From Phycisphaerales bacterium (GTDB taxonomy: Bacteria > Planctomycetota > Phycisphaerae > Phycisphaerales > UBA1924), in contig JAVJVK010000019.1 of assembly GCA_040221175.1 (NCBI GenBank), positions 62,001 through 126,000 on the forward strand: a stretch of 64,000 nucleotides of DNA, in the 5' to 3' direction. Shown here in pieces: positions 8,984-22,059 of this stretch. Positions within the stretch are counted from its first letter, which is position 1. Every line of letters starts with the position of its first letter. A program made the position numbers and the translations under genes. The notes beneath the pieces were generated by a model. It worked only from the letters and a program-made list of their open reading frames with translations. It made no database searches and was not told where the DNA came from.

Positions 8984-9042
8984 GCCCAGCGTAGCCGATA
9001 ACGCCCAATTTCACAAGGGCATTTTGCCGTCGGCGACAAACT

Positions 9043-9609
9043 TCACCGCTTCGCCTGTTCCCGGATCCGGGCCTTGGCCTCCGCGACCTGCTGCTCGACC
9101 ACCGCGCGCAGGGCTTCCCAGGCCTGCTTATCCAATTGCAACTGCGACCCCGCCCTCTGGGCAATGGCTTGCGGCAGGTCGTTGAGGGCCTGGCACACGA
9201 CGCCCAGCGCCTCGTTCCAGTTCGCCCGCACCTCGTCGACCTGCAGCAGTTCGCCCTGCATTTTCCGCAGCTCGATCACCTTCATGTTGGCGATAGCGGT
9301 TTCCTTGATCGCCCGGGCCTTGTTGTACTCTTGCTGGCTCATGCTGGGGGCTCCGGTGGGCTGCCGTGCGTGCCAGGACTTGGCAGGTGAACTTCCCGGC
9401 TTCCGGCCGGCGCCCTCTCGCCGTCCGCCGTGGCCGGTGTCGAGGACATGATCATCGAGCCAGGCGCGGCAGGTGGCCTCGTCCCACAGCCGCCCACCAT
9501 GCGGGGTGTGGCCCGCGGGCGGCATGCCCTCCTGGGCGTACTTGCGCACCGTCGACGCGGCCAGCCCCAGGCGGTCGGCGAGCTGCGAGGTGGTGAGCAG
9601 GTCGGGCAT
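9043..9609 (-). CDS. Phage terminase small subunit-like HTH protein (copy A)
   Basis: 188 residues. Residues 1-60 are an excisionase/Nu1-type winged HTH (LTTSQLADRLGLAASTVRKY, then GRLWDEATCRAWLDDH). Residues 63-75 hold GRREGAGRKPGSS, the basic GRKPG segment common in phage terminase small subunits. The rest is helical and ends in a coiled-coil-like tail. A near-identical-length paralogue lies at 29946-30512. No large terminase, portal or capsid gene is present, so this is a remnant or satellite component. It could also act as a DNA-binding regulator. Confidence 0.7.
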   Translation of the reverse strand: MPDLLTTSQLADRLGLAASTVRKYAQEGMPPAGHTPHGGRLWDEATCRAWLDDHVLDTGHGGRREGAGRKPGSSPAKSWHARQPTGAPSMSQQEYNKARAIKETAIANMKVIELRKMQGELLQVDEVRANWNEALGVVCQALNDLPQAIAQRAGSQLQLDKQAWEALRAVVEQQVAEAKARIREQAKR

Positions 9610-9870
9610 GTCACGGGTTCATCCTGGCTAGTTGTCTGATTCACCGGCGATATCAAGATTCCGCGGCCCATCCGCACACGAAATGCGAACCACGGGCAAC
9701 CTGCGTTTGTCAAAGGTGTTGACTAGTACCCAACCGGGGGGGTAGCCGGCCCGCGCGTCATCGCTTTCCCCTGCGGCGTGCGATTGATCGGCGATGGCCC
9801 TTGCCTCGCGCGAGATGTGAGGGCGTCATGTGTGCCAACGCGTGGCATGGGGCCACGCTGAGGACACGAC
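9610..9870. other. Conserved spacer between the terminase-like and HARE-HTH genes (copy A)
   Basis: This 260-bp divergent intergenic region is nearly identical to 30513-30781 (for example the shared stretch around 9621-9655). Since it diverged less by eye than the flanking frameshifted HARE gene, it probably holds the promoters of both divergent genes. No convincing -10/-35 pair could be chosen; a TTGACA-like hexamer occurs on the minus strand near 9713. Confidence 0.5.
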
Positions 9871-10276
9871 CATGCCGACCAGTACGAAGACTGCGAAGAA
9901 GACCACGGCAAGCGCTCCGCAAAGCAGGCGAGCAAGAAGAAGACGCCCGCCAAGAACACGGCGAAAACCCGGGCAAAGAAGCCGGCCGCGAAGAAGCACG
10001 CGCCCAACGCCGTCACCGCCGCGACGAAGCAGCCCGCCAAGCCCACGCCACGCAAGGGCAAGCAGCCCAGCGGCCTCGACCTCGCGGCGAGGGTGCTGGC
10101 CAACGCCGGCGAGCCGCTGGCGGCCAAGACGATCGCCGAGCGCGTCATCGCCGCGGGCTGGCAGACCAGCGGCAAGACGCCGCACGCGACGCTCTACGCC
10201 GCGAGAGATCCAGACCAAGGGAAAGGACGCTCGCTTCCTGAAGGTCGAGCGCGGCCGTTTCACAGCCAAAGCGTGA
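9871..10276 (+). pseudogene. HARE-HTH domain protein, core scrambled by two compensating deletions (copy A)
   Basis: Compared with the intact copy at 30782-31195, this gene lacks 1 nt near 9907 and 8 nt near 10205. The two losses sum to 9, so the frame returns and the last 24 residues (REIQTKGKDARFLKV) are right. Between them the sequence is read one frame off and becomes Arg/Pro/Ser-rich. The original HARE domain can still be seen in another frame (LANAGEPLAAKTIAERVI from 10093). The product would lack the HARE fold, so this is almost certainly non-functional, though it remains an open frame of 135 codons. Confidence 0.85.
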
Positions 10277-10363
10277 TGCCGGCCCCACCGGCCCGGTAAC
10301 CGCACCGCACCCACCCGGTCTGCCCCCGGGCCGACGCTTCGGCTGAACCCCGGCTGGAAACAC

Positions 10364-10377
10364 ACCGTATATACGGT
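10364..10377. promoter_or_regulatory. Perfect 14-bp palindrome in the toxin-antitoxin promoter
   Basis: ACCGTATATACGGT, an exact inverted repeat 26 bp before the antitoxin ATG and upstream of its AAGGAGG ribosome site (10391-10397). AbrB/MazE-type antitoxins autoregulate by binding such palindromes, so this is the expected operator. The binding itself is inferred. Confidence 0.7.
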
Positions 10378-10402
10378 AGTATTCCCTGTCAAGGAGGCCA
10401 CT

Positions 10403-10630
10403 ATGGTCAAGAACCTGATCAAGCACGGCAACAGCTACGCCATGATCATCGACAAGCCGATTCTCGACCTGCTGCGTGCCAGCCCGGACACGCCCTTCGA
10501 GGTCATCTCCGATGGGCGCTCGCTCGTGCTCACGCCCGTTCGAGATCCCGAGATCGAGCGACGCTTCGAGCAAGCGGTCGATCGCGTCCATAAGCGCTTT
10601 GGCAAGGCCATGAAGCGGCTCGCCGAGTAA
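10403..10630 (+). CDS. AbrB/MazE-type antitoxin
   Basis: 75 residues. Residues 1-45 form a SpoVT-AbrB swapped-hairpin DNA-binding domain (VKNLIKHGNSYAMIIDKPIL, then SDGRSLVLTPV). The C-terminal 30 residues are a charged helix (IERRFEQAVDRVHKRFGKAM) of the type that wraps the toxin. A strong AAGGAGG sits 5 nt before the ATG. The gene is 3 nt from the Doc toxin, so they are co-transcribed. The pair lies inside copy A only. Confidence 0.85.
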   Translation: MVKNLIKHGNSYAMIIDKPILDLLRASPDTPFEVISDGRSLVLTPVRDPEIERRFEQAVDRVHKRFGKAMKRLAE

Positions 10631-10633
10631 GTC

Positions 10634-11020
10634 ATGGTCGATCCGGTCTTTCTCCACGTCGACCAGGTCTTGCGGCTGCACCGCAGCCTGATCAAAGCCT
10701 ACGGCGGTGCGGACGGAACCCGCGACGTTGGCTTGTTGCTCTCGGCACTTGAACAGCCGCGTGCGACGTTCGCGGGCTCGTACCTGCACGCTGACCTTTT
10801 CGAGATGGCCGCCGCGTACCTGTTCCACGTCGTGAGCAACCATCCGTTCATCGATGGCAACAAGCGGACCGGCGCTGCGTCGGCCATCGTCTTCCTGGAA
10901 GTGAACGGCGTGGAGATCGAGGCCGATGAGGATGGGCTGTACGACATCACGGTGGCTGTCGCCTCGGGTAAGGCCGACAAAGCCGAGGTCGCCGTGTTCT
11001 TCCGTGAACGCGCTCACTGA
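10634..11020 (+). CDS. doc: Doc-type (Fic family) death-on-curing toxin
   Basis: 128 residues, the usual length for Doc. The Fic motif is intact as HPFIDGNKRTG (about residues 75-85; canonical HxFxD/EGNKR). Characterised Doc proteins inactivate elongation factor Tu by phosphorylation. Its antitoxin partner is AbrB-like rather than Phd, a common swap. The last 7 nt overlap the end of the methyltransferase remnant on the other strand, marking the right edge of the insertion. Confidence 0.9.
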   Translation: MVDPVFLHVDQVLRLHRSLIKAYGGADGTRDVGLLLSALEQPRATFAGSYLHADLFEMAAAYLFHVVSNHPFIDGNKRTGAASAIVFLEVNGVEIEADEDGLYDITVAVASGKADKAEVAVFFRERAH

Positions 11021-11179
11021 GTTGCTCCCTCTCGCTCGGCCTTCTTGCCCGTGAACCGCTCCCACCGCTTCACGATCACATCGCAGTACAAGGGGGCCAG
11101 CTCCATCAGCAAGGCCCGGCGCTGAGTCTGCTCCGCGGCGATAAGCGTCGAGCCGCTGCCACCGAACAGGTCGAGCACT
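11014..11179 (-). pseudogene. DNA methyltransferase C-terminal remnant (copy A)
   Basis: The last 55 codons of the ParB-methyltransferase that is complete at 31216-32580. The remnant begins at VLDLFGGSGSTLIAAEQ (SAM-binding motif I) and ends KAEREGATQ. The catalytic DPPY motif, ParB domain and start are missing. It stops abruptly at 11179, where HsdR sequence on the other strand begins, so one deletion removed the 5' ends of both. Confidence 0.85.
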
Positions 11180-11180
11180 C

Positions 11181-11745
11181 ATCCACGAGAACGTGCACGT
11201 CGACGCCCTGCGCGACGACGTTGACACGCTCTTGCTCGACGCCGATCTGCTTGAGGCCGTGCTCGGCACGAAGAACCCCGACGGCAAGGCCAAGGAAGTT
11301 ACCATCAAGCTCACCGCCCGGCTGTGCAAGCACGCGAGCAACCCAAGTACAAGGAACTCGCCGAGCGCTCGAAGCGATCAAGGAGCGTCAGGAGCAGGGC
11401 CTGCTCGTGAGCATCGACTTCCTCAAGGCCCTGCTCGACTCGGCCAAGGACGTCGTCCGCATGGAGCGCGAGACGCTCGAGGAAGAAGAGATCGACCAGG
11501 GCCGCACGGCGCTCACCGAGCTCTTCGGAGAGGCCCGCAACGGCGAGACGCCCATCACGGTCAAGCGCGTGGTCGACGACATGGATGAGATCGTGCGGGC
11601 GGTGCGATTCGACGGCTGTCAGGACACGCACGCTGACGAACGCCAGATTCGGATCGAACTGCGCAAGACGCTGCTGAAGTACAAGCTGCACCACGACACC
11701 GAGCTGTTCGAGCGGGCGTACGGGTACGTTCGCGAGTATTACTGA
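11181..11745 (+). pseudogene. Type I restriction endonuclease HsdR C-terminal remnant, with two single-base deletions (copy A)
   Basis: Reading starts mid-protein (IHENVHVDALRDDVDTLLLD) with no start codon context. Compared with copy B it lacks one base near 11344 and one near 11372, so the product is spread over frames. The tail (IDFLKALLDSAKDVVRMERE to the stop) is intact and matches the helical C-terminal domain of HsdR subunits, which binds the rest of the type I complex. No helicase or nuclease motif remains. Confidence 0.8.
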
Positions 11746-11948
11746 TTCTCGAAACTGCCGCCTCAGGCACCCAATCTTCTCCGCTCCGTTAACCGCCACC
11801 CAGAGAGCGCGAAAGTCTCGTCCCCGCCGGCCCTCCTCGCCTCGGGTTCCGCCCGCCACCCACAGTTCTCTCCCAAAAGCCGAGAGACCCCAACCCCCGC
11901 CCCGTCGCCCCAGTGGGGCCGCTTCTGGCCCCGAGCCAGTAAACAAAC

Positions 11949-11975
11949 AGGCCCGCATCCAAAGGACGCGGGCCT
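11949..11975. terminator. Hairpin (copy A counterpart of the tRNA-Asn terminator)
   Basis: AGGCCCGC and GCGGGCCT form an 8-bp perfect stem, extended by TCC/GGA around a small loop. The same hairpin follows tRNA-Asn in copy B (36504-36530). On the minus strand it is followed by a T-rich tract (TGTTTGTTTACTGG). In copy A the tRNA it served is gone. Confidence 0.6.
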
Positions 11976-12329
11976 TGCAAGCTCCCCGAGCGTAACCGTC
12001 TCAAAGGCGCAATGCAATGGATAGGGCGGCGTGTCTCTGCGATCGCCAGGAGTCGGCGGAGTGTATCGAGTGTGTTGACCCGCCGAACAACCTCTTCCCG
12101 CCGCGTCTTTCGGCCTGTTGAATCCAGAGCAATGGGTTTAAGGTGAGTCGTCTGCAACGGTACCCCGAGTCCCGAATTCGGGGCATTCGCGTATTGAGCG
12201 AGTTCTTAGAGTACCTCCGCTCTGCCGTGGTACTGATTATTCGGATTCGATACATGTAGCCATTCGGTTCGTGACGATTATCTGGGGAGTGCGGTATCTA
12301 CTCTCGGCCGCCTCGCGTTGGGCAAGAGA
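11976..12329. other. Junction and intergenic region right of copy A
   Basis: 11981-11990 keeps the 3' end of tRNA-Asn (CTCCCCGAGC) and is followed at once by GTAACCGTC, which in copy B lies on the far side of the complete tRNA gene (36636-36644). After that the two copies share nothing. The rest, to 12329, is less GC-rich than its surroundings; only a doubtful 84-codon minus frame (12001-12255) is open and no gene is supported. Confidence 0.5.
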
Positions 12330-13091
12330 TCACCGGTTGTGCTCCGCGTTCGCCGAGACCTCTTGTCTCGTCGTTGAAAGTCGAAGGGTCTGTTCGAGCT
12401 GGATCTCGTCGGCCACTTTGTCTGGTACGTCCTTATGAGTCATGCCGAAGTCCGACAATTTCACGGCGTAACTGGTCTTGACGAACAGCAAGTCGCCCGG
12501 GGCGATGCTGGCGGTGCGATCGGATGCGTCCAGGAACGACAAGCGGGCGTCCGTTACGCGCAGTTTTCTGGTGACGCCTCGGATCGTCATATCGCCCACG
12601 AGCGTGGCGTTCCAGGTCGAGAAGCCTTTGCCGCGCTTGATCTCCTTGATGCCCTCGACGCTCGCGAGCTTGAACTCGATGGTCGGGTGTGACTCGCCGT
12701 CGAGCCATTCCTTGCCCGCCATGTGCGCGTCGCGCAGCGGGATACCGGTGGCCATCGACTCGACCGGCAGCACCCAGTGGGCGGCGACCAGCTTCGCGGG
12801 GTTGTCCGCCGGCCCCGCGACTGCGTAGCCCACCACCTTGTTGCTCTTGCCGACGATGTTCTCCAGCGGGGCCTTGGAAGTGAACAGCACCTGGGCCTCC
12901 TTGCCGCTGAGCGTGTAGTAGAGCGTGCCCTTCTCGGCCACTTCGGCTGGGGCCTGGGGCTCGTGGGGTTTGTGGGGGGTGGGCTGGATGGCCTCGGTTT
13001 CGACAGCTTGCTGTTGGACGGTTTGCGCGAGCACCGCGCACGCAATCGACACCACGGCGCTCGTCGCCACAATTGCACGAATCGGATTCAT
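12330..13091 (-). CDS. YceI family lipocalin-like periplasmic protein
   Basis: 253 residues from the ATG at 13091 (overlaps the upstream stop, ATGA). Signal peptide to about residue 22 (cleavage near VLAQ), a Pro/Glu-rich linker (PTPHKPHEPQAPAEV), then a YceI domain (about 50-235; TIEFKLASVEGIKEIKRGKGF, LVGDMTIRGVTRKLRV). YceI proteins are eight-stranded barrels that bind long isoprenoid chains such as polyprenyl compounds. As last gene of a polyketide/quinone-type operon it may carry the lipophilic product in the periplasm. That role is inference. Confidence 0.85.
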   Translation of the reverse strand: MNPIRAIVATSAVVSIACAVLAQTVQQQAVETEAIQPTPHKPHEPQAPAEVAEKGTLYYTLSGKEAQVLFTSKAPLENIVGKSNKVVGYAVAGPADNPAKLVAAHWVLPVESMATGIPLRDAHMAGKEWLDGESHPTIEFKLASVEGIKEIKRGKGFSTWNATLVGDMTIRGVTRKLRVTDARLSFLDASDRTASIAPGDLLFVKTSYAVKLSDFGMTHKDVPDKVADEIQLEQTLRLSTTRQEVSANAEHNR

Positions 13092-13477
13092 GGTTGTTTC
13101 TCCTTGAGTAGCACGCAATGACGCCCGCGACGCATCGCGATGGCGCCAACGCTGCACAGGCCGAGCCCGACGGTCGCCACGGACGCGACGGACACGAGGT
13201 ATCTCGGTGTAAACCCACCGGGCAGCAGCCCGAGCGCGAAGCGGCTCTCGATGTCCGGCTGGGCCATCGCGTCCTCCTCGGTGGTCAGGCCGATGTCCTC
13301 GAAGAGGTCGAGGTCCTCTTCCGACGTTGCCGTGTCCGAGGCGGCGAGCTTCGCGTCGGGCCATCGCGTGTAGCCCTCGTGCCCCGTCGCCGCCCACACC
13401 AGCACCGGCGCGACGGCGAGCCCGAGCCCCGCCGCCAGCAGCAACCGTGGCCATTGCCGATGCCCGGTCACGCTCAT
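13088..13477 (-). CDS. Small two-helix membrane protein of unknown function
   Basis: 129 residues with membrane helices at about 10-30 (LLLAAGLGLAVAPVLVWAA) and 92-113 (YLVSVASVATVGLGLCSVGAI). The segment between them is acidic (SEEDLDLFEDIGLTTEEDA). No family recognised. It overlaps the lipoprotein gene upstream and the YceI gene downstream by 4 nt each, so it belongs to the same operon. Confidence 0.75.
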   Translation of the reverse strand: MSVTGHRQWPRLLLAAGLGLAVAPVLVWAATGHEGYTRWPDAKLAASDTATSEEDLDLFEDIGLTTEEDAMAQPDIESRFALGLLPGGFTPRYLVSVASVATVGLGLCSVGAIAMRRGRHCVLLKEKQP

Positions 13478-13929
13478 CGCGATTCTCCCTCTGCCTGAAC
13501 ATCCAGTTTGAACGCCGTCTCGCCAAGGTCCATGGACTTGAGCCAGAGGAATCCCGTGTGGTCCTTGTGGCCGAGCACGCCGCTCAGGTGCAGCAGCGTC
13601 GAGTCGGGCTCGAGGGGGGGCTCATCGAACTTGATGTCGAGCGTGAGCTCCGCCTCGCCGCCCGCCGGTAGATCGACATCGCCGGTCCAATACCCGCTGG
13701 CGACTGGCAGGGCCATCTCGCCGTGCGAGAGCTCGTAGTCGACGCGGTTGATCGTCAGCCGCCGCCCGCCCGGGTTGCCCAGGGTGAGCGCGATCGATGC
13801 GGCGTCGTCGGTCATACTGGCACGACGAACGGCCACCGTCGGGTTCGAGCTGTTGGCCACGCAGCCAGTCAGCAAGCTGCCAGCCGTGAGCATCACGAGG
13901 CCGGCAACGGTTCGAGTCGAGATTCCCAT
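13474..13929 (-). CDS. LEA type 2-like lipoprotein
   Basis: 151 residues from the ATG at 13929, chosen because GGAGG lies 5 nt upstream. A lipoprotein signal (GLVMLTAGSLLTGC) puts the lipidated Cys near residue 23. The mature part is an Ig-like beta domain of LEA14 type: ASIALTLGNPGGRRLTINRVDYELS, then PAGGEAELTLDIKFDEPP. Such domains bind hydrophobic ligands or surfaces in some bacterial lipoproteins. The start overlaps the end of the monooxygenase gene by 37 nt in another frame. Confidence 0.75.
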   Translation of the reverse strand: MGISTRTVAGLVMLTAGSLLTGCVANSSNPTVAVRRASMTDDAASIALTLGNPGGRRLTINRVDYELSHGEMALPVASGYWTGDVDLPAGGEAELTLDIKFDEPPLEPDSTLLHLSGVLGHKDHTGFLWLKSMDLGETAFKLDVQAEGESR

Positions 13930-15425
13930 GGTGTCCTCCATGCGCCCCAAACGCGCCGTGGCGCGGAGCTGGAATGCGAATGCACGATGCGATCGGGCCG
14001 AACGAGCACGAGCGCCCCGGGCCCGAAGCGATGCTGGAGCTTGCGCTCCCTGTCAATGAAGTCGCGTCCCTCGACGAGCAGCACGTCGCCCAGGCTGAGC
14101 GGCACGTGGTCAACCTCGCCCGGCCGGCCATCGCAACCAAGCTGCAGCCAGGTCATACGCGGGCCGAGCAGCGCGTCGAACGCGATGCCCTGCCCGTTCC
14201 TGACTTCCACGCGAGGCTGGGGCAGGTACCCCCCCGCGAGCGGGCCCGAGCCGACCAGCGTGCTGTTGTACACCGGCCGCAGATCGGGCCCACGCATCTC
14301 GAAGCGACTACGCATCGCCGAAGAGCGACCGACTAGCCCGATTGCTTTGTGGGCAAGCGTTCCGAGCACCGGGTTTGCTGGCGACATCAACCAGCCCAAC
14401 CGGAGGGCGAGGTTGATCATCTTCCGCTGGTGGGGTCGGCGTTCGGCCTCGTAGGTTTCCAGCACCGATTGCGGCAGCCAGCCCTGCGTCGCGCCCGCGA
14501 GCTTGAACGCGAGGTTGGACGCGTCGCGGAGCCCCGTCGCCAGCCCCTGGCTCGCGAAGGGGGGCGTCACATGCGCCGCGTCGCCTGCCAGGAAGACACG
14601 GCCCTCGCGCCACCGCTCGGCCATGCCGGCCCGGAATCGCATGACGGCGAAGTCGATCAGCTCGGCGTTGGTTACCGCAGGCCAGACGCTATGGAGGTGC
14701 TCCATCACGGCCGATGCGTCCAGTCCCGCGGCCTGCTCGGGGGTGAGCATCATCTCGATGCGTCGGCGATTGCCCGGTAGCGGCACCGACACCGACGCGG
14801 CCCCAGACGCACAGCCGATGCGCACGCAGTGGTCATTGCTCGAGTCGGTGATGTTCGCCACGAGCCAGGGTTGGGGCAGGTTCTTCGTCGGCATAGCAAT
14901 TCCGAGGTGCTGCCGCACAGCGCTGGTCGCGCCGTCGCACGCGACGACCCATCGCGCCGTGAAGGAACCTGTCGCTTCGCCCACCTTGGCAGAAACTTCT
15001 ACGCCACACTCATGCTGCGAGAGATTCTCGAACGCCGTGCCTGGAACGAGGTCGATGCTCGGATGGTCGATGGCTTTCTGCCACAGGATGGCGCTCGCCA
15101 TGTCCTGGTCGATGACGGCCGCGTGGGGGTGCCCCAGGTCGCTGTGCCGCTGACGCAGGCTCAGGAACTCACGACCAACGCCATCGGAGTACCGGCAGAT
15201 CACGCTGCCTGCCTGGCCCGATGCCCAGGCGCCTGCCAGGTCCGGCCCAAGGCCGCAGGCCTGCCAGATACGCAGGCACTCGTCGTCCACTGACACCGCA
15301 CCCAGCCGTGCGACTGGGGAGTGGCCCCGCTCGAGCAGCGTCACACGGAGGCCGTGCTTCGCCAACAGGTGGGCCAGCGTCAGGCCAACGGGCCCGGCGC
15401 CCACGATGAGAACATCACGCATCAT
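13893..15425 (-). CDS. FAD-dependent aromatic monooxygenase (PheA/TfdB type)
   Basis: 510 residues from the double ATG at 15425, which overlaps the methyltransferase stop by 11 nt. FAD-binding GxGxxG is at the start (VLIVGAGPVGLTLAHLLAKHG); the second FAD motif is GRVFLAGDAAHVTPPFASQG; the DG fingerprint is WVVACDGATSAVR. These are hallmarks of class A flavoprotein hydroxylases acting on phenols. In this operon the likely substrate is the methylated product of the type III polyketide synthase, hydroxylated towards a quinol. The C-terminal thioredoxin-like domain of the family is present. Confidence 0.88.
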   Translation of the reverse strand: MMRDVLIVGAGPVGLTLAHLLAKHGLRVTLLERGHSPVARLGAVSVDDECLRIWQACGLGPDLAGAWASGQAGSVICRYSDGVGREFLSLRQRHSDLGHPHAAVIDQDMASAILWQKAIDHPSIDLVPGTAFENLSQHECGVEVSAKVGEATGSFTARWVVACDGATSAVRQHLGIAMPTKNLPQPWLVANITDSSNDHCVRIGCASGAASVSVPLPGNRRRIEMMLTPEQAAGLDASAVMEHLHSVWPAVTNAELIDFAVMRFRAGMAERWREGRVFLAGDAAHVTPPFASQGLATGLRDASNLAFKLAGATQGWLPQSVLETYEAERRPHQRKMINLALRLGWLMSPANPVLGTLAHKAIGLVGRSSAMRSRFEMRGPDLRPVYNSTLVGSGPLAGGYLPQPRVEVRNGQGIAFDALLGPRMTWLQLGCDGRPGEVDHVPLSLGDVLLVEGRDFIDRERKLQHRFGPGALVLVRPDRIVHSHSSSAPRRVWGAWRTPWESRLEPLPAS

Positions 15426-16218
15426 GCTTGGCCGCCTTGTTGTCGGGAACGCGAGCCACGTGCTGGGCAACCGCTCCCATCCAGTACTCGTGAACCTTCA
15501 CGTCTTCGTAGCCCAGCTCCTCAAACATGCCCGCGAGCGTTCGCTGATCGGGGAAGTACTTGTTCGACTCTGGCAGGTAGCGGAACGAGTTGTACTCGCC
15601 GCGGTGGAAGATGAGCTTTCCGAGGATGGGGGCCACCCGTTTGAATTGCACCTCGTAGATCGCCCGGAACAGCATGTTGCGCGGCTTGCCCTGGTCCATG
15701 TTGCACACGAACCCGCCGGGCTTGACCACGCGTTGCAACTCCTTCAGCCCGGCCTCGAGGCTCGAAAGGTTCCTCAGTCCGAAGCTGATGACCGCCCCGT
15801 CGAAGCTGTCGTCGGGAAAGTCGAGCGAAAGCGCGTCTCCCGGCCGGAAGTTGATCTGCCCAAGCAAACCAGCGGCCTTGCGTTGCGCGACCTCGAGCAT
15901 CCGCGTCGAGGCGTCCACACCCGTCACCATCAAGTCCAGATGAGCGCGGGCCATCAGGATCGCGATGTCGCCGCTGCCCGTGCACACGTCCAGCACATGC
16001 GAGCCCGGGCGGATCGGCATTCGCGACACGGCCTTGCGATCGAACTTCCCCTTGGTACCCAGCGAGTGCAGCACGTTGGTCGCGTCGTACTTGTCGGCCA
16101 GATTGTCGAAAAACTGGCGGTTGTACCCCGCCCAGTCGTTGGCCTCGAAGTAGCGGTCGAACCCGGTGTCGTGGATCAACTTCAGCTTTGCCTGGTTGTC
16201 GTGAATCGCGTGTGTCAT
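15415..16218 (-). CDS. UbiE/MenG-like SAM-dependent methyltransferase
   Basis: 267 residues, class I methyltransferase fold. SAM motif I is VLDVCTGSGDIAILMARA, motif II/III region is DALSLDFPDDSFDGAVISFGLRNL, which closely follows UbiE/COQ5 quinone C-methyltransferases (they carry FGLRN). It overlaps the polyketide synthase gene by 4 nt. In menaquinone or ubiquinone synthesis UbiE methylates the ring. Here the context points to methylation of the polyketide ring instead, though a role in ordinary menaquinone synthesis cannot be excluded. Confidence 0.88.
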   Translation of the reverse strand: MTHAIHDNQAKLKLIHDTGFDRYFEANDWAGYNRQFFDNLADKYDATNVLHSLGTKGKFDRKAVSRMPIRPGSHVLDVCTGSGDIAILMARAHLDLMVTGVDASTRMLEVAQRKAAGLLGQINFRPGDALSLDFPDDSFDGAVISFGLRNLSSLEAGLKELQRVVKPGGFVCNMDQGKPRNMLFRAIYEVQFKRVAPILGKLIFHRGEYNSFRYLPESNKYFPDQRTLAGMFEELGYEDVKVHEYWMGAVAQHVARVPDNKAAKHDA

Positions 16219-17291
16219 GACGATGCTCCCCGGCCAAGCCGGATCAGGAGTTGGTGCGCACTGAAACCCGGGCCGAAACTCATCATGAGCGTCGGCCCGG
16301 GCGAGGGGGTCGAGTTCAGCAGGGCGTCGAGGATGAACACCACCGTACTCGAGCTCATGTTGCCGTACTGCCGCATGACGCGGCGAGCCAGATCGACGTT
16401 GCCTCCGAACGTGGACAGAGTTTCTTCGATCCGGTCCAGGATCTTCACACCGCCAGGGTGGATCACGAAGTGCCCGATGTCGCTCAGAGCCAGGCCGTTG
16501 CGATCCAGCATCGGCGCTGTGGCACCCTGGAGGTTGCGCCCGATGACGTCGGGCAGGGTCGGATCGAGGTTCATCAACAGGCCGGTGTCGGTGAGGTGGT
16601 AGCCCAGCAGCCCGGTGGTTTCGAACACCTGGTGCATGTACCAGTCTTCGATGACGACCGGGCCAGGCGCCTCCTCACAGGCCACGATCGTGCAGGCGAT
16701 GCCGTCGGAGAACAGCGCCGCTCCCACGATGTTGTCCATCGAGTAGTCGTTATGCTGCATCGTGTTCGATGGGAATTCAATGTTCAGTACCGCAGCCTTG
16801 CGCCCCGGCCGGCCAGTGAGCATCTCGGCTGCATAGATAAGCGCCGAAGCGCCCGCCGCGCAGCCCATCTCGGTCACCGGCAGCCGCACGAGGTCGGGTC
16901 GCATGCCCAGCGCATCGGCGATGTACGCGTCGACCGAGGGGATCATGTACCCCGTGCACGAAGTGGTGATCAGCACGTCGAGGTCTTCGGGCTTCACCCC
17001 GGCCTTCGCCAGCGCATCTGCCACGGCCCTGGTTCCCAGCTCGATCGCGTGCTCGCGATAGCGTGCCGAAGACTCCGTGAGCCCGCAGGGCGTAAAGATT
17101 TCCTCAAGTGACAGGAACGAGTGCCGCGCCTCGACGCCGGCGTTGCGCAGGATGCGCATGCCCTTGACCTGCGTGGCTCGGTCGCTGCCACTCAGCCACC
17201 GCTCGAACGCTTGCTCGACCGCGGGGCCGGAGTGCCGAAGCGGAGGCAGCGCGGTGTGGGTGGCCAGGATGTTGATGTGTCCGTTGCTCAT
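16215..17291 (-). CDS. Type III polyketide synthase (chalcone synthase family)
   Basis: 358 residues, normal for bacterial type III synthases. The catalytic triad is visible: Cys in TEMGCAAGASAL, His in GHFVIHPGGVKIL, Asn in RQYGNMSSSTVVF. GPGFSAHQLLIRL near the C-terminus matches the family's GFGPGL loop. Start chosen at 17291 with AGGAG upstream. Such enzymes extend an acyl-CoA with malonyl-CoA to pyrones, resorcinols or phloroglucinols. Coupling with a methyltransferase and flavin hydroxylase resembles known phenolic-lipid operons in which an alkylresorcinol is turned into a methylated quinone. Confidence 0.93.
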   Translation of the reverse strand: MSNGHINILATHTALPPLRHSGPAVEQAFERWLSGSDRATQVKGMRILRNAGVEARHSFLSLEEIFTPCGLTESSARYREHAIELGTRAVADALAKAGVKPEDLDVLITTSCTGYMIPSVDAYIADALGMRPDLVRLPVTEMGCAAGASALIYAAEMLTGRPGRKAAVLNIEFPSNTMQHNDYSMDNIVGAALFSDGIACTIVACEEAPGPVVIEDWYMHQVFETTGLLGYHLTDTGLLMNLDPTLPDVIGRNLQGATAPMLDRNGLALSDIGHFVIHPGGVKILDRIEETLSTFGGNVDLARRVMRQYGNMSSSTVVFILDALLNSTPSPGPTLMMSFGPGFSAHQLLIRLGRGASS

Positions 17292-17296
17292 GGACT

Positions 17297-18907
17297 TCAC
17301 GCTCCTTGGCCGATCCTGGTTTCGACGGCCGGAGAGAGTGCGGCATTGCTGGAGCGCCCCACTCCCGACATCAACCACACAGCCAGGGCCGCACCCGCGA
17401 GCGCGCCGCCGCACGCGACCCAAGCGCTGGCGTGGAAGCCCCCTTCGAACGCACCGACAACCGGAACACGCGCCGCCACGCCCGCGGCCGTGCCGGCCAC
17501 CTGCTCCACCCGTTCGAGCACAACCATCGCGCCGCCAAGAGAGTGACGCATCGCTTCCACCGCGTCGGCAGGCATGGGGGAGCCAACAAAGCCGTCGGTG
17601 ATGTTCTGGCGGTACACGCCGTTGAAAACACTGCCCATCGCGGCCACACCCAGCGTGCCGCCGAGTTCCCGTGTTGTGTCATTGATAGAAGAGCCCACGC
17701 CCGCCTTGCTCGCGGGCAGCGCGTTCATGATAACTTCGGTTGCCGCCGCGTTCACCAGTCCGAGTCCGACACCAAGCAGTGACATCTGCCACACCAGGGT
17801 CTCGTACGGCGTGTGCTGCGTGTCTTGCGAGACCCACGCGAAGCCCACGCCCATCAGCACGAGGCCGGCGGCCGAGATCCAGCCCTGACGCCGGTGCGAA
17901 CCCAACCGCGCCGCCACAGCCGCGCCACACAGGATGAAACCCGCGAACGGCAGCGTCCGCACACCGGCTTGCAATGCCGAGTATCCCTGCACGAATTGCA
18001 GGTACTGGGTCACCATGAACACAAAGCCAAAGAGGCCGAAGAACGCCGCCGAGATCGCCACGCAGGCGCCAGTGAATCGGTGCTGGCGGAAGACCCGCAC
18101 ATCCAGCATGGGCGCTGGCGTGCGGGTCTCCCACCACCCGAAGAAGGTCCAAAGAACCGCCGAGAGGAGCAGCGCTCCGGCGATGTGCCACGATCCCCAG
18201 CCGTACACGGGCCCCTCGATCAAGCCGAACACCAGTGTGAAGATCGCCAGAATCGAGAGCACATTGCCGGCGGGGTCGAAGCGGTGTGGCCGGGGATCGG
18301 CCGACGGACGCACGAACAAGGCCGAGCCCGCGAGCACCGCGGCGATCACCGGCAGATTGACCAGGAACACCGAGCCCCAGTGGAAGTGCTCGAGCAGCCA
18401 GCCGCCAGCAACGGGCCCGAGCGCTACACCCAGCCCGCTGCTGCCCGCCCACACGGCGATCGCCCGCCGGCGCTGCGCTGGGTCCGCGAACGTATCGGTG
18501 ATGATCGCCAGGGTCGAGGGGAAGATCATCGCCGCGCCGAGGCCCATGGCGGCCCGCCAGGCGATGAGCTGGCCGGCGGTCTGCGAGGTCGCGCCGCCCA
18601 ACGACATCAACCCGAACACGACCAGGCCCAGCACCATGACTCGCCGACGCCCAAACCGATCGGCCGCACTGCCAGCGGTGAGCAGGATGGCCGCGAACGC
18701 GAGGATGTACGCGTCGACGATCCACTGCAGCTGGCTGTTGCTCGAACCGTCGAGGGCACGTGCCAGCGTCGGCAGCGCCACGTTCACGATCGAACCGTCC
18801 ATCACGATCACCGTCACCGCCAGGGTGACGGTCGCCAGCGTGCCCAGTGCTCGCCACCCGTTCGCGGGCGTTTCGTTGGCAGCCAGGTTCGGTGATCGAC
18901 CGATCAT
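17297..18907 (-). CDS. MFS transporter, DHA2 (14-helix) drug:H+ antiporter type
   Basis: 536 residues from the ATG at 18907. Motif C/D features of the 14-helix family: TVIVMDGSIVNVALPTLAR in helix 1, GSAADRFGRRRVMVLG (motif A) and GPVAGGWLLEHFHWGSVFLVNLP (motif C region). It is the first gene of the operon, 5 nt before the polyketide synthase. It likely exports the product or gives self-resistance. It diverges from the sensor-kinase gene, with a 120-bp shared promoter region. Confidence 0.9.
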   Translation of the reverse strand: MIGRSPNLAANETPANGWRALGTLATVTLAVTVIVMDGSIVNVALPTLARALDGSSNSQLQWIVDAYILAFAAILLTAGSAADRFGRRRVMVLGLVVFGLMSLGGATSQTAGQLIAWRAAMGLGAAMIFPSTLAIITDTFADPAQRRRAIAVWAGSSGLGVALGPVAGGWLLEHFHWGSVFLVNLPVIAAVLAGSALFVRPSADPRPHRFDPAGNVLSILAIFTLVFGLIEGPVYGWGSWHIAGALLLSAVLWTFFGWWETRTPAPMLDVRVFRQHRFTGACVAISAAFFGLFGFVFMVTQYLQFVQGYSALQAGVRTLPFAGFILCGAAVAARLGSHRRQGWISAAGLVLMGVGFAWVSQDTQHTPYETLVWQMSLLGVGLGLVNAAATEVIMNALPASKAGVGSSINDTTRELGGTLGVAAMGSVFNGVYRQNITDGFVGSPMPADAVEAMRHSLGGAMVVLERVEQVAGTAAGVAARVPVVGAFEGGFHASAWVACGGALAGAALAVWLMSGVGRSSNAALSPAVETRIGQGA

Positions 18908-19027
18908 GCCTATAGCTTCGGATGCAGGTTGGCCAAAGTCGCATCCGAGGCGGCTGCAATGTTTGCGGTGGCCTCCACGGGCCGGCTTGGGGAGGCCACA
19001 ATCCGCTCTCACGAGGAGGTGTCGCCG

Positions 19028-20485
19028 GTGGGCATCCAGGTCAAGCTCTTCATCGTCATGGTCCTCATTCTGGTGCTGCCGCTCAGCGTGACCGGCATTA
19101 CCTGGCATGGCCTCACGCGCATAGACGAGGAACTTCGGCAAGTCGCCGAGGAGTTCGGCGAGGCGCGTCGCCTCCAGCCTGTCGACGTTGATCTCTCCCT
19201 CGCCGCCGCCGAGCTCGCCCACGACGACGACCGCCTGCACTCGCGCTCCCTCGAGAGCCTGCGCCGAGCCGAGTCCAACCTCGTCCAGTACCTCGCCGAG
19301 CAGTACGACGACGTGTCCTCACAGGAACACCAGGCCGAGGAGGCAAGCCGAGCCGCGAGCGTGCTAGCCGATATCCGCGACCTCATCGGCGACGCATGGG
19401 GCACGATGCCCGCCGATGAACGCACCAATCGCATCCTGCAGATCCGCGCCGGCTTGCGGGCTCTTTACGAAGAAGCCGATACCGGCGTGCTGAGCGCCCC
19501 GGCGCAGGCGCAGGCCACCCGGCGGCAGACCTTGGCTCTCGTTCTCGGCGCGAGCCTTGTTTCGGCGACCGTGTGCATGGCGCTCTCGATCTGGTCGACG
19601 CGTGGCGTCATCGTTCGTCTCCGCGAGCTGCGCAATGCGATGGTCGCACGCGCCGAAGGGTCGCCATCGCCCGAACCACGTGACGTCGGCGGCGTGGTCA
19701 GCCAGCTCGAAGAGCTCAGCACACGCATGGCGCTCAAGATCGAGGAAAAGAACCGCGAGCTCCTCCGCCGCGAACGCATGGCCGGCGTTGGTCTGTTGGC
19801 CGCCGATGTCGCCCACGAGATCAACAACCCGCTCAACGCCATGCTGGGCCTGGCCGAGCTCTCGCTCCGTGCCACCATCTCGGGCCCGATCGACGATGCC
19901 GGCAGGCAGGAACTCCACGAGTCCCTCGGAGTGATACGCCGCGAAGCAATCCGTTGCCGCGCCATCGTCCAACGATTGATGTCGATGGTCCGCAGCCCAC
20001 GGGCTCCCGAGACACTGGACGTCCAGCGGCTTCTCACCGAGACGGTCGATACCGCGCGTGCTGCACGCCCCGATCGTGCGGCCTGCTACGCGTTCACGTG
20101 CCCCGACAAGCCACTCTCGATCACCGCCCGGGGCGACGATGTTCGCCAGATCATGCTCACGCTACTCATCAATGCCGCCGACGCCGTCGGCCCCGACGGG
20201 CGAATCGACGTCGACGCCACCCGCGCAGGCGGCGAAGTGTGGCTCCGCGTTCGAGACAACGGCCGCGGGATGCCTGCAGAGGCCATCGAGAACCTGGGCG
20301 TCCCGTTCGCCACAACGCGTAGCGACAAGGGCGGCACCGGGTTGGGACTTTCCATCGCCACCACGATTGCCGCCGACATCGGTGCAACGATCCGCGCCGA
20401 AAGCCCAGGACCGGACCAGGGGACGCTGTTCATCCTCGCCATTCCGACCGACGAGCCCCTTGATCAGGACGGAGATCGTCAGTGA
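19028..20485 (+). CDS. Membrane sensor histidine kinase
   Basis: About 485 residues from a GTG at 19028, preferred over an upstream ATG (18929) because GAGGAGG lies 8 nt before it and the first membrane helix then starts at residue 5 (VKLFIVMVLILVLPLSVTGI). A periplasmic sensing region (about 30-165) is followed by a second helix (LALVLGASLVSATVCMALSIW), a HAMP-like segment, HisKA with phospho-His in DVAHEINNPLNAML, and HATPase_c (N box LLINAADAV, G1 DNGRGMP, G2 GGTGLGLSI). Pairs with the response regulator overlapping its stop (20482). Confidence 0.9.
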   Translation: MGIQVKLFIVMVLILVLPLSVTGITWHGLTRIDEELRQVAEEFGEARRLQPVDVDLSLAAAELAHDDDRLHSRSLESLRRAESNLVQYLAEQYDDVSSQEHQAEEASRAASVLADIRDLIGDAWGTMPADERTNRILQIRAGLRALYEEADTGVLSAPAQAQATRRQTLALVLGASLVSATVCMALSIWSTRGVIVRLRELRNAMVARAEGSPSPEPRDVGGVVSQLEELSTRMALKIEEKNRELLRRERMAGVGLLAADVAHEINNPLNAMLGLAELSLRATISGPIDDAGRQELHESLGVIRREAIRCRAIVQRLMSMVRSPRAPETLDVQRLLTETVDTARAARPDRAACYAFTCPDKPLSITARGDDVRQIMLTLLINAADAVGPDGRIDVDATRAGGEVWLRVRDNGRGMPAEAIENLGVPFATTRSDKGGTGLGLSIATTIAADIGATIRAESPGPDQGTLFILAIPTDEPLDQDGDRQ

Positions 20486-21081
20486 CTGAAGAGCACGCCA
20501 CGCCTTCTCGCCGCATCTTGGTCGTCGAAGACGAATCGGCCCAGCGTCTGATGTATGAGAAGGCGCTCACCCGCATGGGATTCGGCGTCACCCTCGCGGC
20601 GAGCATCTCCCAGGCGCGGCAAGCACTCACGGAGCACTCGTTTGCCGTCGTCCTTCTCGACCTCAACCTGGGCGGTGAGTCTGGCATGGACTACTTCGAG
20701 GAACTCCGCGAGGCCCACCCGGCCACCTCGGTCGTCATCGCCACCGGCTACGGCACACTCGACGCGGCCTCGCGCGCGATCCGAATGGACGTGGTCGACT
20801 TTCTGTCCAAGCCGGTCGCCTTGGATGACCTTGAGAAGGCCGTCGAGCGTGCCTGGTCCCGCTGCAAAAAGGTGCAGGCACCCGTTTCCAGCATCCAGCC
20901 CAGCGCCCTGGACGACGACGCCAAGGCAATCGCCAGTCGCCGCAGCCTCAACATCGAGCAGGCCGAGAGGGATCTCATCTTCGAAGCGCTGCGGCGCTGC
21001 CAGGATAACCGCAAGGCGGCGGCGAGCATGTTGGGGATCAGCGAACGCACACTCTACTATCGCCTGAGCCTGTATATGTAA
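20482..21081 (+). CDS. Response regulator with Fis-type HTH (ActR/PrrA-like)
   Basis: 199 residues. Receiver domain 10-125: acidic pocket VVEDES, phospho-Asp in VVLLDLNLGG, Thr/Ser region VIATGYGT, Lys in FLSKPVALDD. A linker leads to a C-terminal Fis-type HTH (ERDLIFEALRRCQDNRKAAA, then MLGISERTLYYRLSLYM). There is no AAA+ domain, so it is a two-domain ActR/PrrA-type activator. Targets are unknown; the divergent polyketide operon is the closest candidate. Confidence 0.9.
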   Translation: MTEEHATPSRRILVVEDESAQRLMYEKALTRMGFGVTLAASISQARQALTEHSFAVVLLDLNLGGESGMDYFEELREAHPATSVVIATGYGTLDAASRAIRMDVVDFLSKPVALDDLEKAVERAWSRCKKVQAPVSSIQPSALDDDAKAIASRRSLNIEQAERDLIFEALRRCQDNRKAAASMLGISERTLYYRLSLYM

Positions 21082-21548
21082 GTGGCGACGGGTGTGACAC
21101 AAAGCGTCTCTCGTCTGTGGTGTCCCGCTCAGCACCATGATTGGGATCATGCGCAGCTTCTCGGAAACTCTTAGCGCGGAAAGACTTCGACAGATGACGA
21201 GGCGGCCCGGTACTGCGCACCCGTGAGCGTAGGGCGGGCATCGCTTCACATGCGGCTATTGTCAGAGGACGGACGTCGGCCGCGCCAGCCTGGCTAGCCG
21301 ATCGTCAATGTGAACAGCATCGCGGCATTGCAATCACAATTTGTTCGTCAGTGTGATCGGTGCCGTGGTTGTTGCTGGGGTGGCTTCCAGATCCTGAGAG
21401 TGGCCTCTCAGTGTCAGGAAACTCGCGGTTGAAAACGCCGCGAAGCTTGTCTCAATAATGGGCGCCATCCGCATTGCCGAGAGTTTCCAGCATGTGATTG
21501 CAAAGAGTTGAGAATCTACCGCCGTCCATCGAGGTATACTTGAAGTAG
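21082..21548. other. Intergenic region before the metal-efflux cluster
   Basis: About 470 bp with no supported gene; a 76-codon minus frame (21334-21564) has no recognisable product and overlaps the next start. It contains a stem of CTGAGAG and CTCTCAG arms separated by TGGC (21394-21411), a possible operator. A promoter for the efflux operon must lie here; GTATACTTG shortly before 21549 is a candidate -10 area but is not certain. Confidence 0.4.
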
Positions 21549-21974
21549 ATGAGCGTTCGCCCACTGGCCATTTTGCTCACAGCGATCATCGCCTTTCACG
21601 CGCTGGCGGGCGGTGTCGAAGGCATGGCCGTGCTGTGCCTCGGCGGCGGCCACCAGCACCTATCGACCGAGTCCAATCATTGTGAGTCGGCTTGTAGCCA
21701 CGACGGCACCTGGGCGCTCCCTGTCCCTGTGGACGAGCACGAGCACGACTGCGGCTGCACGGACATCGAGCTAGAGATCGCAGAACTGATTTCGTTGCCG
21801 CGCGGCGGCGACGTCGACGCCCCGAGTCCTGCCATCGTACCGATTCCGAGCCGAGGCGTCGCGCTCCAGGATGCCGGCCTCGGCCAGCGCGGGCCGCCCC
21901 AGCGGCCGCCCTGGTTCGATCCCGGTGGGGTCCACCGGCTCGCGATCGTGGGCAGTGTTCGCCTGACCATTTGA
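21549..21974 (+). CDS. Small His/Cys-rich exported protein before the efflux genes
   Basis: 141 residues. Hydrophobic N-terminus (LAILLTAIIAFHALAGGVEG) suggests a signal peptide. The following part is rich in metal ligands (GGGHQHLSTESNHCESACSH and DEHEHDCGC). The second half is Pro/Gly-rich. It resembles the small periplasmic metal-binding proteins that often head Czc/Cus operons, but no named family is recognised. Close upstream placement of the CzcC-like gene supports a role in metal sensing or buffering. Confidence 0.65.
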   Translation: MSVRPLAILLTAIIAFHALAGGVEGMAVLCLGGGHQHLSTESNHCESACSHDGTWALPVPVDEHEHDCGCTDIELEIAELISLPRGGDVDAPSPAIVPIPSRGVALQDAGLGQRGPPQRPPWFDPGGVHRLAIVGSVRLTI

Positions 21975-22059
21975 TTCCTGCCTGTTCCTTCGCGCGTGCC
22001 GCGGCGGCTTGGACCGTTGTGGCGGGTATCGCTTTGGACTCAGACAGGGATTGCAAACT

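Follow-up and report, generated by a model that had tools for sequence, protein, structure and literature searches.

The polyketide quinone cluster of S. griseus is named srsABC. Its equivalent in mycobacteria and Streptomyces, pkqABC, is described in the part of the source available to us as three genes, for a synthase, a methyltransferase and an oxidoreductase, that give alkylbenzoquinones, with no exporter, YceI protein or lipoprotein mentioned there (PMC9927152). In planctomycetes, Milke et al. (2024, PMC10896814) described a five-gene type III polyketide synthase operon in Saltatorellus ferox Poly30, whose other products are two methyltransferases, a lipoprotein and a lipid/isoprenoid-binding protein. 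In the same study, the S. ferox synthase alone made alkylresorcinols in C. glutamicum, and four related planctomycete synthases, including that of S. ferox, gave pentadecyl- and/or heptadecylresorcinols. A G. maris methyltransferase was called a probable C-methyltransferase, and the co-expressions of G. maris and S. ferox genes formed no alkylquinone and left the oxidoreductase and the two S. ferox methyltransferases without a clear role. The planctomycete counterpart of the hierridin-type hidABC genes accounted for 58 of 96 genes, and the natural job of the planctomycete alkylresorcinols was reported as unknown (PMC10896814). For the YceI lipocalins, the available part of another paper describes BcnA-LcoA, a lipocalin with a cytochrome b561, as a peroxyl-radical detoxification system and calls the in vivo role of the family unsettled (PMC9113575).

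The locus described here lies in a 64,000-nucleotide stretch of the genome of a Phycisphaerales bacterium (the window) and is a variant, not seen before, of these phenolic-lipid clusters (Table 1). Like the S. ferox operon, which we know by description, it brings together a lipoprotein, a lipid-binding protein, a methyltransferase and a synthase; the lipid/isoprenoid-binding protein of S. ferox is probably a YceI protein, and on that description both are synthase operons that carry a lipoprotein and a YceI. The initial annotation, whose interpretation is supported in part, knew of no characterised system with the full set, but much of the set is already present in S. ferox (PMC10896814). Beyond it, the locus has an MFS exporter, an aromatic hydroxylase, a small two-helix protein and a two-component system, with one methyltransferase instead of two. 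A layout like that of S. ferox is found at another locus, L128, with a YceI, a small Cys-bearing protein, a methyltransferase, an unassigned protein and a synthase. Compared with L128, the lipoprotein of our cassette looks unrelated and its YceI is short, the other form having 383-394 aa, a hydrophobic N-terminus and a long extra part. The cassette shares with hidABC the presence of a methyltransferase, an FAD oxidoreductase and a type III synthase, but in hierridin-type clusters these stand in that order, whereas the cassette runs from the MFS gene through synthase, methyltransferase and hydroxylase to the carriers. The source genome has its own hierridin-type copy (G000:C1:250236), with no YceI nearby, whose synthase falls in a different, strongly supported part of the synthase tree. 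Based on gene order and tree place, we rejected membership of the hierridin type.

Table 1. Features of the cassette, with positions in the window
Feature	Position	Strand	Evidence
DHA2-family MFS exporter, 536 aa, operon gene 1	17297..18907	-	Pfam MFS_1, NCBIfam TIGR00711
Type III polyketide synthase, 358 aa	16215..17291	-	Pfam Chal_sti_synt_N/C
UbiE/MenG-type methyltransferase, 267 aa	15415..16218	-	NCBIfam TIGR01934
Class A FAD aromatic hydroxylase, MhpA-like, 510 aa	13893..15425	-	Pfam FAD_binding_3
Lipoprotein, candidate LEA_2-like beta-sandwich	13474..13929	-	lipobox alignment, structure model, Foldseek
Small membrane protein, 129 aa	13088..13477	-	two hydrophobic segments, adjoins YceI
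YceI-family lipocalin, 253 aa	12330..13091	-	Pfam YceI, Foldseek
Sensor histidine kinase, divergent	18929..20485	+	Pfam HisKA, HATPase_c
Response regulator, receiver + Fis-type HTH	20482..21081	+	Pfam Response_reg, HTH_8
Terminator-like hairpin, candidate operon end, downstream of YceI	11949..11975	-	12 pairs, 9 G-C

The seven co-directional genes at 12330-18907 had been annotated as an almost entirely overlapping set, and this was confirmed: all are on the minus strand and five of the six junctions overlap. A gap of 5 bp separates the MFS gene from the ATG of the synthase gene, and the following overlaps are 4 bp (synthase/methyltransferase), 11 bp (methyltransferase/hydroxylase), 37 bp (hydroxylase/lipoprotein, to the lipoprotein ATG), 4 bp (lipoprotein/small membrane protein) and 4 bp (small membrane protein/YceI). 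The hydroxylase gene has an alternative second ATG at 15422. Pfam gathering cut-offs were passed by YceI, FAD_binding_3, Ubie_methyltran, the N- and C-terminal Chal_sti_synt domains and MFS_1. As a unit of seven genes, however, the block is incomplete: its genes and their linkage are real, but a divergent histidine kinase/response regulator pair (18929-21081; 4 bp overlap), conserved together with the operon, had been missed. The kinase is 48-51% identical, and in the same place, in the three other cassettes that we found (L036, L139 and L140), and the response regulator 51-54%. The kinase is listed with a TTG start, and the real start may be further downstream. We also considered whether such regulators are a general part of YceI-linked loci and rejected this, because the kinases near the YceI-linked synthases L122, L125 and L142 are not orthologues (27-32% identity, against 48-53% for the cassette orthologues). 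When the regions between the MFS and kinase genes were aligned across the four cassettes, no clear motif emerged; a promoter scan was at chance level (1 found, 1.1 expected), and Rfam models, applied at their gathering cut-offs, had no match in 9000-24000. Terminator-like sites in the region were about as many as expected (6 against 5.5), so that only its long stem favours the hairpin downstream of YceI as a terminator.

The reading that we favour, with a probability of about 60%, is that the nine genes are one transferable cassette that makes a phenolic lipid and hands it out of the cytoplasm. Judging from the enzymes encoded, the product is probably an alkylresorcinol-derived lipid, possibly a quinone. 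The synthase would elongate a long-chain acyl starter by malonyl units and cyclise the chain to an alkylresorcinol. The ring may then be hydroxylated by the FAD hydroxylase and C-methylated by the UbiE-type enzyme, and the resulting methylated alkyl-hydroxyquinol could cycle with its quinone. Transport of this product over the inner membrane, presumably outwards, would be the task of the MFS protein; the small two-helix protein may hold YceI at the membrane, where YceI would collect the product in the periplasm, and at a membrane face the lipoprotein may receive or hold it. Expression of the operon is probably turned on by the divergent two-component system, and the product might serve as a membrane antioxidant, an envelope lipid or a chemical signal.

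YceI scored 68.8 bits in Pfam (cut-off 23.7), and its hydrophobic N-terminus is a predicted signal peptide. The structure model has middling confidence (pLDDT 66.4), and every one of its 13 Foldseek matches below E 0.001 is a YceI-family chain, so that both the Pfam score and the lipocalin-like fold place it among the YceI lipocalins. That such proteins carry lipids or quinones, as had been proposed, is backed for the family by the available part of PMC9113575, where YceI structures hold octaprenylphosphate, octaprenylphenol or ubiquinone-8. The lipoprotein has the lipobox LTGC followed by a conserved CVANSSNP in the alignment. It stays below the Pfam cut-off for LEA_2 (20.4 against 25.4 bits), a family that three of the four lipoprotein orthologues match with E values of 1 or lower, 4.5e-6 being the best, and Foldseek matches of its model (pLDDT 79.9) include 3but and the LEA protein 1yyc, among other folds. 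Weak matches to it occurred in G002, G077, G096, G242, G213 and G271; no YceI was seen in the stretches fetched from two of these, G002 and G096.

The small membrane protein has hydrophobic segments at residues 9-32 and 93-115 with a conserved loop in between, a length of 117-131 aa across relatives, and no Pfam match above cut-off. Like BcnA-LcoA, as far as that system is described in the available text (PMC9113575), the cassette encodes a YceI lipocalin with a membrane partner, but this partner is not a b561 haem protein, as no His is invariant in a seven-row alignment and Pfam gives no b561 match; a cytochrome b561 identity was rejected on both grounds, and a GT87 identity because the match was under cut-off. 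In searches of two overlapping samples of 294 and 298 genomes, the small protein adjoined YceI at 10 of 11 loci, six of them with no synthase nearby. At the match in G481 there was no YceI within 13 kb, and none was seen in the stretches fetched for the weak matches in G097 and G027 (a further weak match, G184, was not fetched). In another explanation, the operon makes an antimicrobial or signalling phenol for secretion, and the MFS and YceI proteins serve for efflux and sequestration in self-protection instead of carrying a membrane lipid. The MFS protein is indeed of the DHA2 multidrug type, the YceI lipocalin BcnA captures antibiotics according to the available parts of PMC5350466 and PMC9113575, and the top Foldseek match of our YceI model, 7bwl, is an antibiotic-sequestering YceI protein. 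However, some of the stretches examined have the YceI/small-protein pair but no synthase, as would be expected if the pair has a general lipid or quinone job, and in disc assays the core alkylresorcinols of relatives added no antimicrobial effect (PMC10896814). We consider self-protection unlikely.

The biosynthetic genes fit the proposed phenolic-lipid pathway with ring hydroxylation and methylation, as first annotated. The synthase is a type III polyketide synthase by its Pfam chalcone/stilbene domains and its Cys-His-Asn triad (C144/H278/N311), which is intact; in an alignment of 123 rows, the Cys is present in 122 and the His and Asn in all. A malonyl-only synthase of the DpgA type, the best NCBIfam match, was rejected because it scored 134.3 bits against a cut-off of 425. 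The nearest solved structure by sequence is M. tuberculosis PKS11, which has a Trp where the window synthase has Tyr231. This position probably corresponds to the one at which the resorcinol-forming ArsB has an aromatic residue, as given in the available part of PMC6274091, and it is aromatic in all 23 YceI-linked synthases. It cannot settle the ring type, because it is likewise aromatic in PKS11, which is named an alpha-pyrone synthase, and in 98 of 100 rows without YceI. The methyltransferase is of the UbiE/MenG type (TIGR01934, 188.7 bits, cut-off 158.35), the exporter matches efflux_EmrB (TIGR00711, 234.6 bits, cut-off 230.2), and the top NCBIfam match of the hydroxylase, PRK06183.1-3, is under its cut-off. 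Compared by order alone, synthase, methyltransferase and oxidoreductase follow each other as in pkqABC/srsABC. This order, which is that of the actinobacterial three-gene cluster in the available part of PMC9927152, and the quinone-type modification set formed by the hydroxylase and the UbiE-type enzyme would suit an inner-membrane respiratory lipoquinone as in mycobacteria and Streptomyces, with the periplasmic proteins peripheral to it. Yet gene order by itself is weak evidence, an inner-membrane electron carrier needs no exporter, and the actinobacterial cluster is described in that text without YceI, lipoprotein or exporter (PMC9927152). A purely respiratory role seems to us distinctly improbable.

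Three other planctomycetes (L036, L139 and L140) have all nine genes in an identical arrangement, with proteins that are 43-66% identical: 62-66% for the methyltransferase, 57-62% for the exporter and 46-48% for the hydroxylase. The preserved order in three other genomes indicates an association of the seven genes beyond chance. Loss of linkage between YceI and the lipoprotein in relatives had been named as an argument against the proposal, and all three have kept both. Blastn similarity with them is limited to 12373-21067 of the window, with none found past the cassette ends. Of these three relatives, L036 was found by the synthase alone, among its best 80 matches, and the other two, in genomes G640 and G391, by the methyltransferase alone. 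The cassette is patchy in distribution: its methyltransferase is missing from every one of 43 further genomes sampled in this family and present in 2 of 396 other genomes of the class, at 62 and 64% identity. We infer that the cassette moved between lineages.

A survey of synthase loci showed that the linkage with YceI recurs, but that most loci are without it. Among the synthase matches listed, those down to about E 2e-22 were fetched, plus G270 at 2.5e-17 and apart from one of two matches in G024 and one of two pieces in G029, and nearby YceI genes were called with a profile grown from the YceI of the window (E under 1e-5); Pfam confirmed YceI in all four proteins submitted (L105, L119, L125 and L128). 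At 15 of 105 other planctomycete loci, a YceI gene is found no more than 4 kb from the synthase gene and in every case on its strand, a lower bound because several contigs are short; about 0.2 such pairs are expected by chance, as estimated by hand from 229 YceI matches, in a search complete for the genomes with matches, and an assumed 4.8 Mb per genome. In Bacteroidota, 5 of 79 synthase loci have a same-strand YceI, and four of nine YceI neighbours are on the opposite strand. No YceI was found within 4 kb at 90/105 and 70/79 loci, respectively. On the synthase tree, which includes rows of at least 250 residues and 19 of the 79 Bacteroidota loci, the linkage requires 11 changes, at least 10 of them forced, and none of 500 shuffles was as low. 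In the midpoint-rooted YceI tree, 18 of 19 synthase-linked planctomycete copies stand apart from 20 of 21 unlinked copies, unlinked meaning on a contig other than that of the synthase or not fetched next to a synthase; for 14 of these 21, the same genome has a linked copy too. Among the unlinked rows, L237 is a fragment of 26 residues, and the linked copy L146 falls outside, on a very long branch. The linked Bacteroidota rows fall with unlinked copies. The YceI of the cassette is nested in a clade linked to the small membrane protein (support 100/100), and the trees show that several YceI groups take part in the linkage. This repeated pairing in two phyla suggests that it matters. That the carrier genes joined the operon by chance, as the many synthase loci without a close YceI and the occurrence of the YceI/small-protein pair alone in other genomes might be taken to indicate, is very improbable given the order kept in four genomes although 34-57% of aligned residues differ, the translational overlaps, the agreement in strand in all 18 planctomycete cases and the repetition with different YceI groups.

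Going beyond the cassette as a maker and exporter of a phenolic lipid, a bolder and less probable reading is that Planctomycetota and some Flavobacteriia have repeatedly tied the synthase to a YceI of its own, with the result that a lipoquinone of polyketide origin acts in the periplasm or outer membrane and thus beyond the inner membrane. The two-helix protein might then be a new class of YceI docking protein that replaces b561 and serves ordinary-quinone YceI in other planctomycetes. As a candidate new family of YceI partners, it is open to testing. Both the natural job of the planctomycete alkylresorcinols and the in vivo role of the YceI lipocalins could be addressed in one direct experiment, since this operon encodes a candidate ligand and a lipocalin together.

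All seven genes that the initial annotation had assigned to one operon are present as described, and its remark that they are almost all overlapping also held: overlaps of 4 to 37 bp occur at five of the six junctions, the exception being a 5 bp gap between the exporter and synthase genes. The type III polyketide synthase contains the catalytic triad Cys144-His278-Asn311. Among the 25 of 83 NCBIfam families listed, the hydroxylase, an MhpA-like class A flavoprotein of 510 residues, exceeded no cut-off. The seven genes are co-directional, but the unit is larger, as a divergent two-component pair brings it to nine genes.

Features of the cassette (window positions; empty cells, no value reported)
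Feature	Position	Strand	Remarks
Seven-gene operon	18907-12330	-	exporter start to YceI end
MFS exporter	start 18907	-	above DHA2 cut-off (NCBIfam)
Synthase	start 17291	-	start read from sequence
Methyltransferase		-	NCBIfam UbiE/MenG, 188.7 vs cut-off 158.35 bits
Lipoprotein	start 13929	-	start read from sequence
YceI	start 13091, end 12330	-	start read from sequence; above Pfam cut-off
Histidine kinase and Fis-type response regulator	18929-21081		transcribed away from operon

The nine genes of this cassette recur in identical order and orientation, with protein identities of 43 to 66%, in a Phycisphaeraceae metagenome-assembled genome (locus L036, top match among the best 80 synthase loci) and in genomes G640 (L139) and G391 (L140). 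L036 was found via the synthase alone and the other two via the methyltransferase alone, so the remaining cassette genes were not selected for. When the whole window was compared by blastn with 18- to 20-kb stretches of these three cassettes (E up to 1e-5), nucleotide similarity was limited to positions 12373 to 21067. The cassette is rare. When 397 genomes of the class were searched with the methyltransferase, matches above 60% identity turned up only in the window's genome, G640 and G391, the next best being 39%; the 5 genomes of the same genus and the 38 others of the same family had no such match. The patchy distribution together with the conserved gene order suggests that the cassette spread by horizontal transfer. 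Its GC content is unremarkable (66.0%, compared with 67.2% for the window).

Beside the cassette, a small frame that gives an antitoxin-like impression (no Pfam match) is directly followed by a Fic/Doc-family gene (10403 to 11020), and the two are likely a toxin-antitoxin pair. The 174-residue frame at 11221 to 11745, resembling by eye the C-terminus of a type I restriction R subunit (no Pfam match), is possibly a gene remnant at the cassette edge. Positions 9043 to 9609, with a MerR-like N-terminus under the Pfam cut-off and a long C-terminal part resembling, on inspection, a phage packaging small subunit, may be a prophage remnant.

The window's genome has a second synthase (L134; G000:C1:250236-251048) with a methyltransferase and an oxidoreductase upstream, an order that is hierridin-like. 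This synthase groups with those of three same-genus genomes in the sample, where it is the counterpart of their enzyme and where no match closer than about 30% to the cassette synthase was found.

The coupling of synthase and YceI was followed in a neighbourhood survey of 105 further synthase loci from a 294-genome phylum sample (the second copy of the window's genome included) plus the three other cassettes. The link is recurrent but not universal. YceI lies within 4 kb of the synthase at 18 of 108 planctomycete loci (15 of 105 when the three cassettes are excluded), and it is always on the synthase's strand (18/18). As 159 of the 294 genomes have YceI (229 matches by hand sum), we estimated by hand, assuming 4.8 Mb per genome, that roughly 0.2 chance neighbours would be expected for 105 loci. 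In Bacteroidota, assigned by record titles among the best 80 synthase matches, YceI lies no more than 4 kb from the synthase at 9 of 79 loci: at five it is on the same strand, directly before the oxidoreductase gene, and at four on the opposite strand. In the synthase tree (123 rows) the window and the three cassettes form one group (support 100), joined next by L119, which also has YceI, and the 19 Bacteroidota rows (100). Linkage to YceI (23 rows) takes 11 changes on this tree, at least 10 of them forced by strongly supported branches, compared with 21.3 for shuffled linkage, and none of 500 shuffles was as low; the change count indicates repeated gain or loss of the link.

At least three YceI groups are tied to such synthases, as follows from their placement in the YceI tree (62 rows). 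There, a split (95/88) separates 20 of the 21 planctomycete copies that are unlinked (on another contig than a synthase, or not fetched beside one) from 18 of the 19 planctomycete copies that are synthase-linked; the remaining unlinked row is a 26-residue fragment, and 14 of the 21 come from genomes that have a linked copy too. The Bacteroidota linked copies are on the unlinked side, and the cassette YceI lies within a separate clade (100/100) with YceIs adjoining the small membrane protein. The linked YceIs of L128, L125 and L119 are a long form (383 to 394 residues), hydrophobic at the N-terminus and extended in the N-terminal region by a long unassigned part, whereas the cassette YceI is short and has a separate two-helix protein. 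Possibly, the anchor is built into the former and supplied separately in the cassette. The small Cys-bearing proteins that come after YceI in L125 and L128 share an LxWRPAT motif and gave no Pfam match.

The small membrane protein itself had no match above the Pfam cut-off. Its family was sought by profile in 294 genomes of the phylum and 298 of the class, samples that overlap, and was found outside the cassettes in seven genomes (G020, G261, G270, G379, G453, G469 and G481), and YceI adjoins it in 6 of these 7 loci and in all four cassettes (10/11). No synthase was found in 6- to 20-kb stretches around the six non-cassette pairs (L250 and L260 to L264, all but G481). Weaker matches in G097, G027 and G184 (E 3e-4 to 5e-3) were left out of this count; the fetched stretches of two of them contained no YceI. 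The loop is conserved, with the approximate sequence ATG-EGYTRWP ... SRFALGL-PGG. From its sequence the protein likely has two helices, but this is not certain for all members, because the weakly hydrophobic second segment passes the threshold in 5 of 7. The lipoprotein family was found in one case beside a YceI without a synthase (L253 in G270). For the lipoprotein, the model (pLDDT 79.9) is a good sandwich of seven strands; 3but and the LEA protein 1yyc are among its matches, but their TM-scores are 0.38 to 0.47, and ApaG proteins reach up to 0.65. Confidence in the YceI model is middling (66.4), yet every one of its 13 matches below E 0.001 is a YceI-family chain, among them the polyisoprenoid-binding protein of T. 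thermophilus and YceI of E. coli.

Regarding the product, the synthase is closest in sequence, among solved enzymes, to PKS11 of M. tuberculosis, which bears the name alpha-pyrone synthase. The choice between resorcinol and pyrone is described as steered by Trp281 in ArsB versus Gly in ArsC (PMC6274091), and Trp281 is reported for ArsB, PkqA and the Streptomyces MNU77 enzyme (PMC9927152). The window synthase has Tyr231 at the Trp position of PKS11, which probably corresponds to Trp281 of ArsB, and 121 of 123 rows of the synthase tree have an aromatic residue there. Position 231 does not decide the ring type, because PKS11 has Trp there. Published expression work is a stronger guide. According to PMC10896814, pentadecyl- and/or heptadecylresorcinols were formed in C. 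glutamicum by four synthases of planctomycetes, that of S. ferox included, whose genes lie in three-gene operons or variants of these, and no product was detected for two synthases from outside such operons. Co-expressed G. maris genes are reported there to add one methyl group, probably on carbon, with no alkylquinone formed and the oxidoreductase's role still unclear. The same source describes an S. ferox operon of a lipoprotein, a lipid/isoprenoid-binding protein, two methyltransferases and the synthase, which the layout of L128 resembles.

Among the open-access literature matches listed, we judged PMC10896814 alone to be relevant to the carrier link, and no publication joining YceI and type III polyketide synthases was found in that literature. 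Phenolic-lipid clusters are known; our open-access searches did not find in print the recurrent linkage to YceI or the family of YceI partners. We propose that the inner face would be the site where a phenolic lipid is made and its ring modified; the MFS protein would then export this lipid, and YceI, close to its membrane partner, would take it up. Many YceI lipocalin structures are reported to bind octaprenylphenol or ubiquinone-8, and in Burkholderia YceI and cytochrome b561 are described as guarding the envelope against lipid peroxyl radicals (PMC9113575). By analogy, and as the least certain step, the cassette could supply the cell with a home-made antioxidant quinol.
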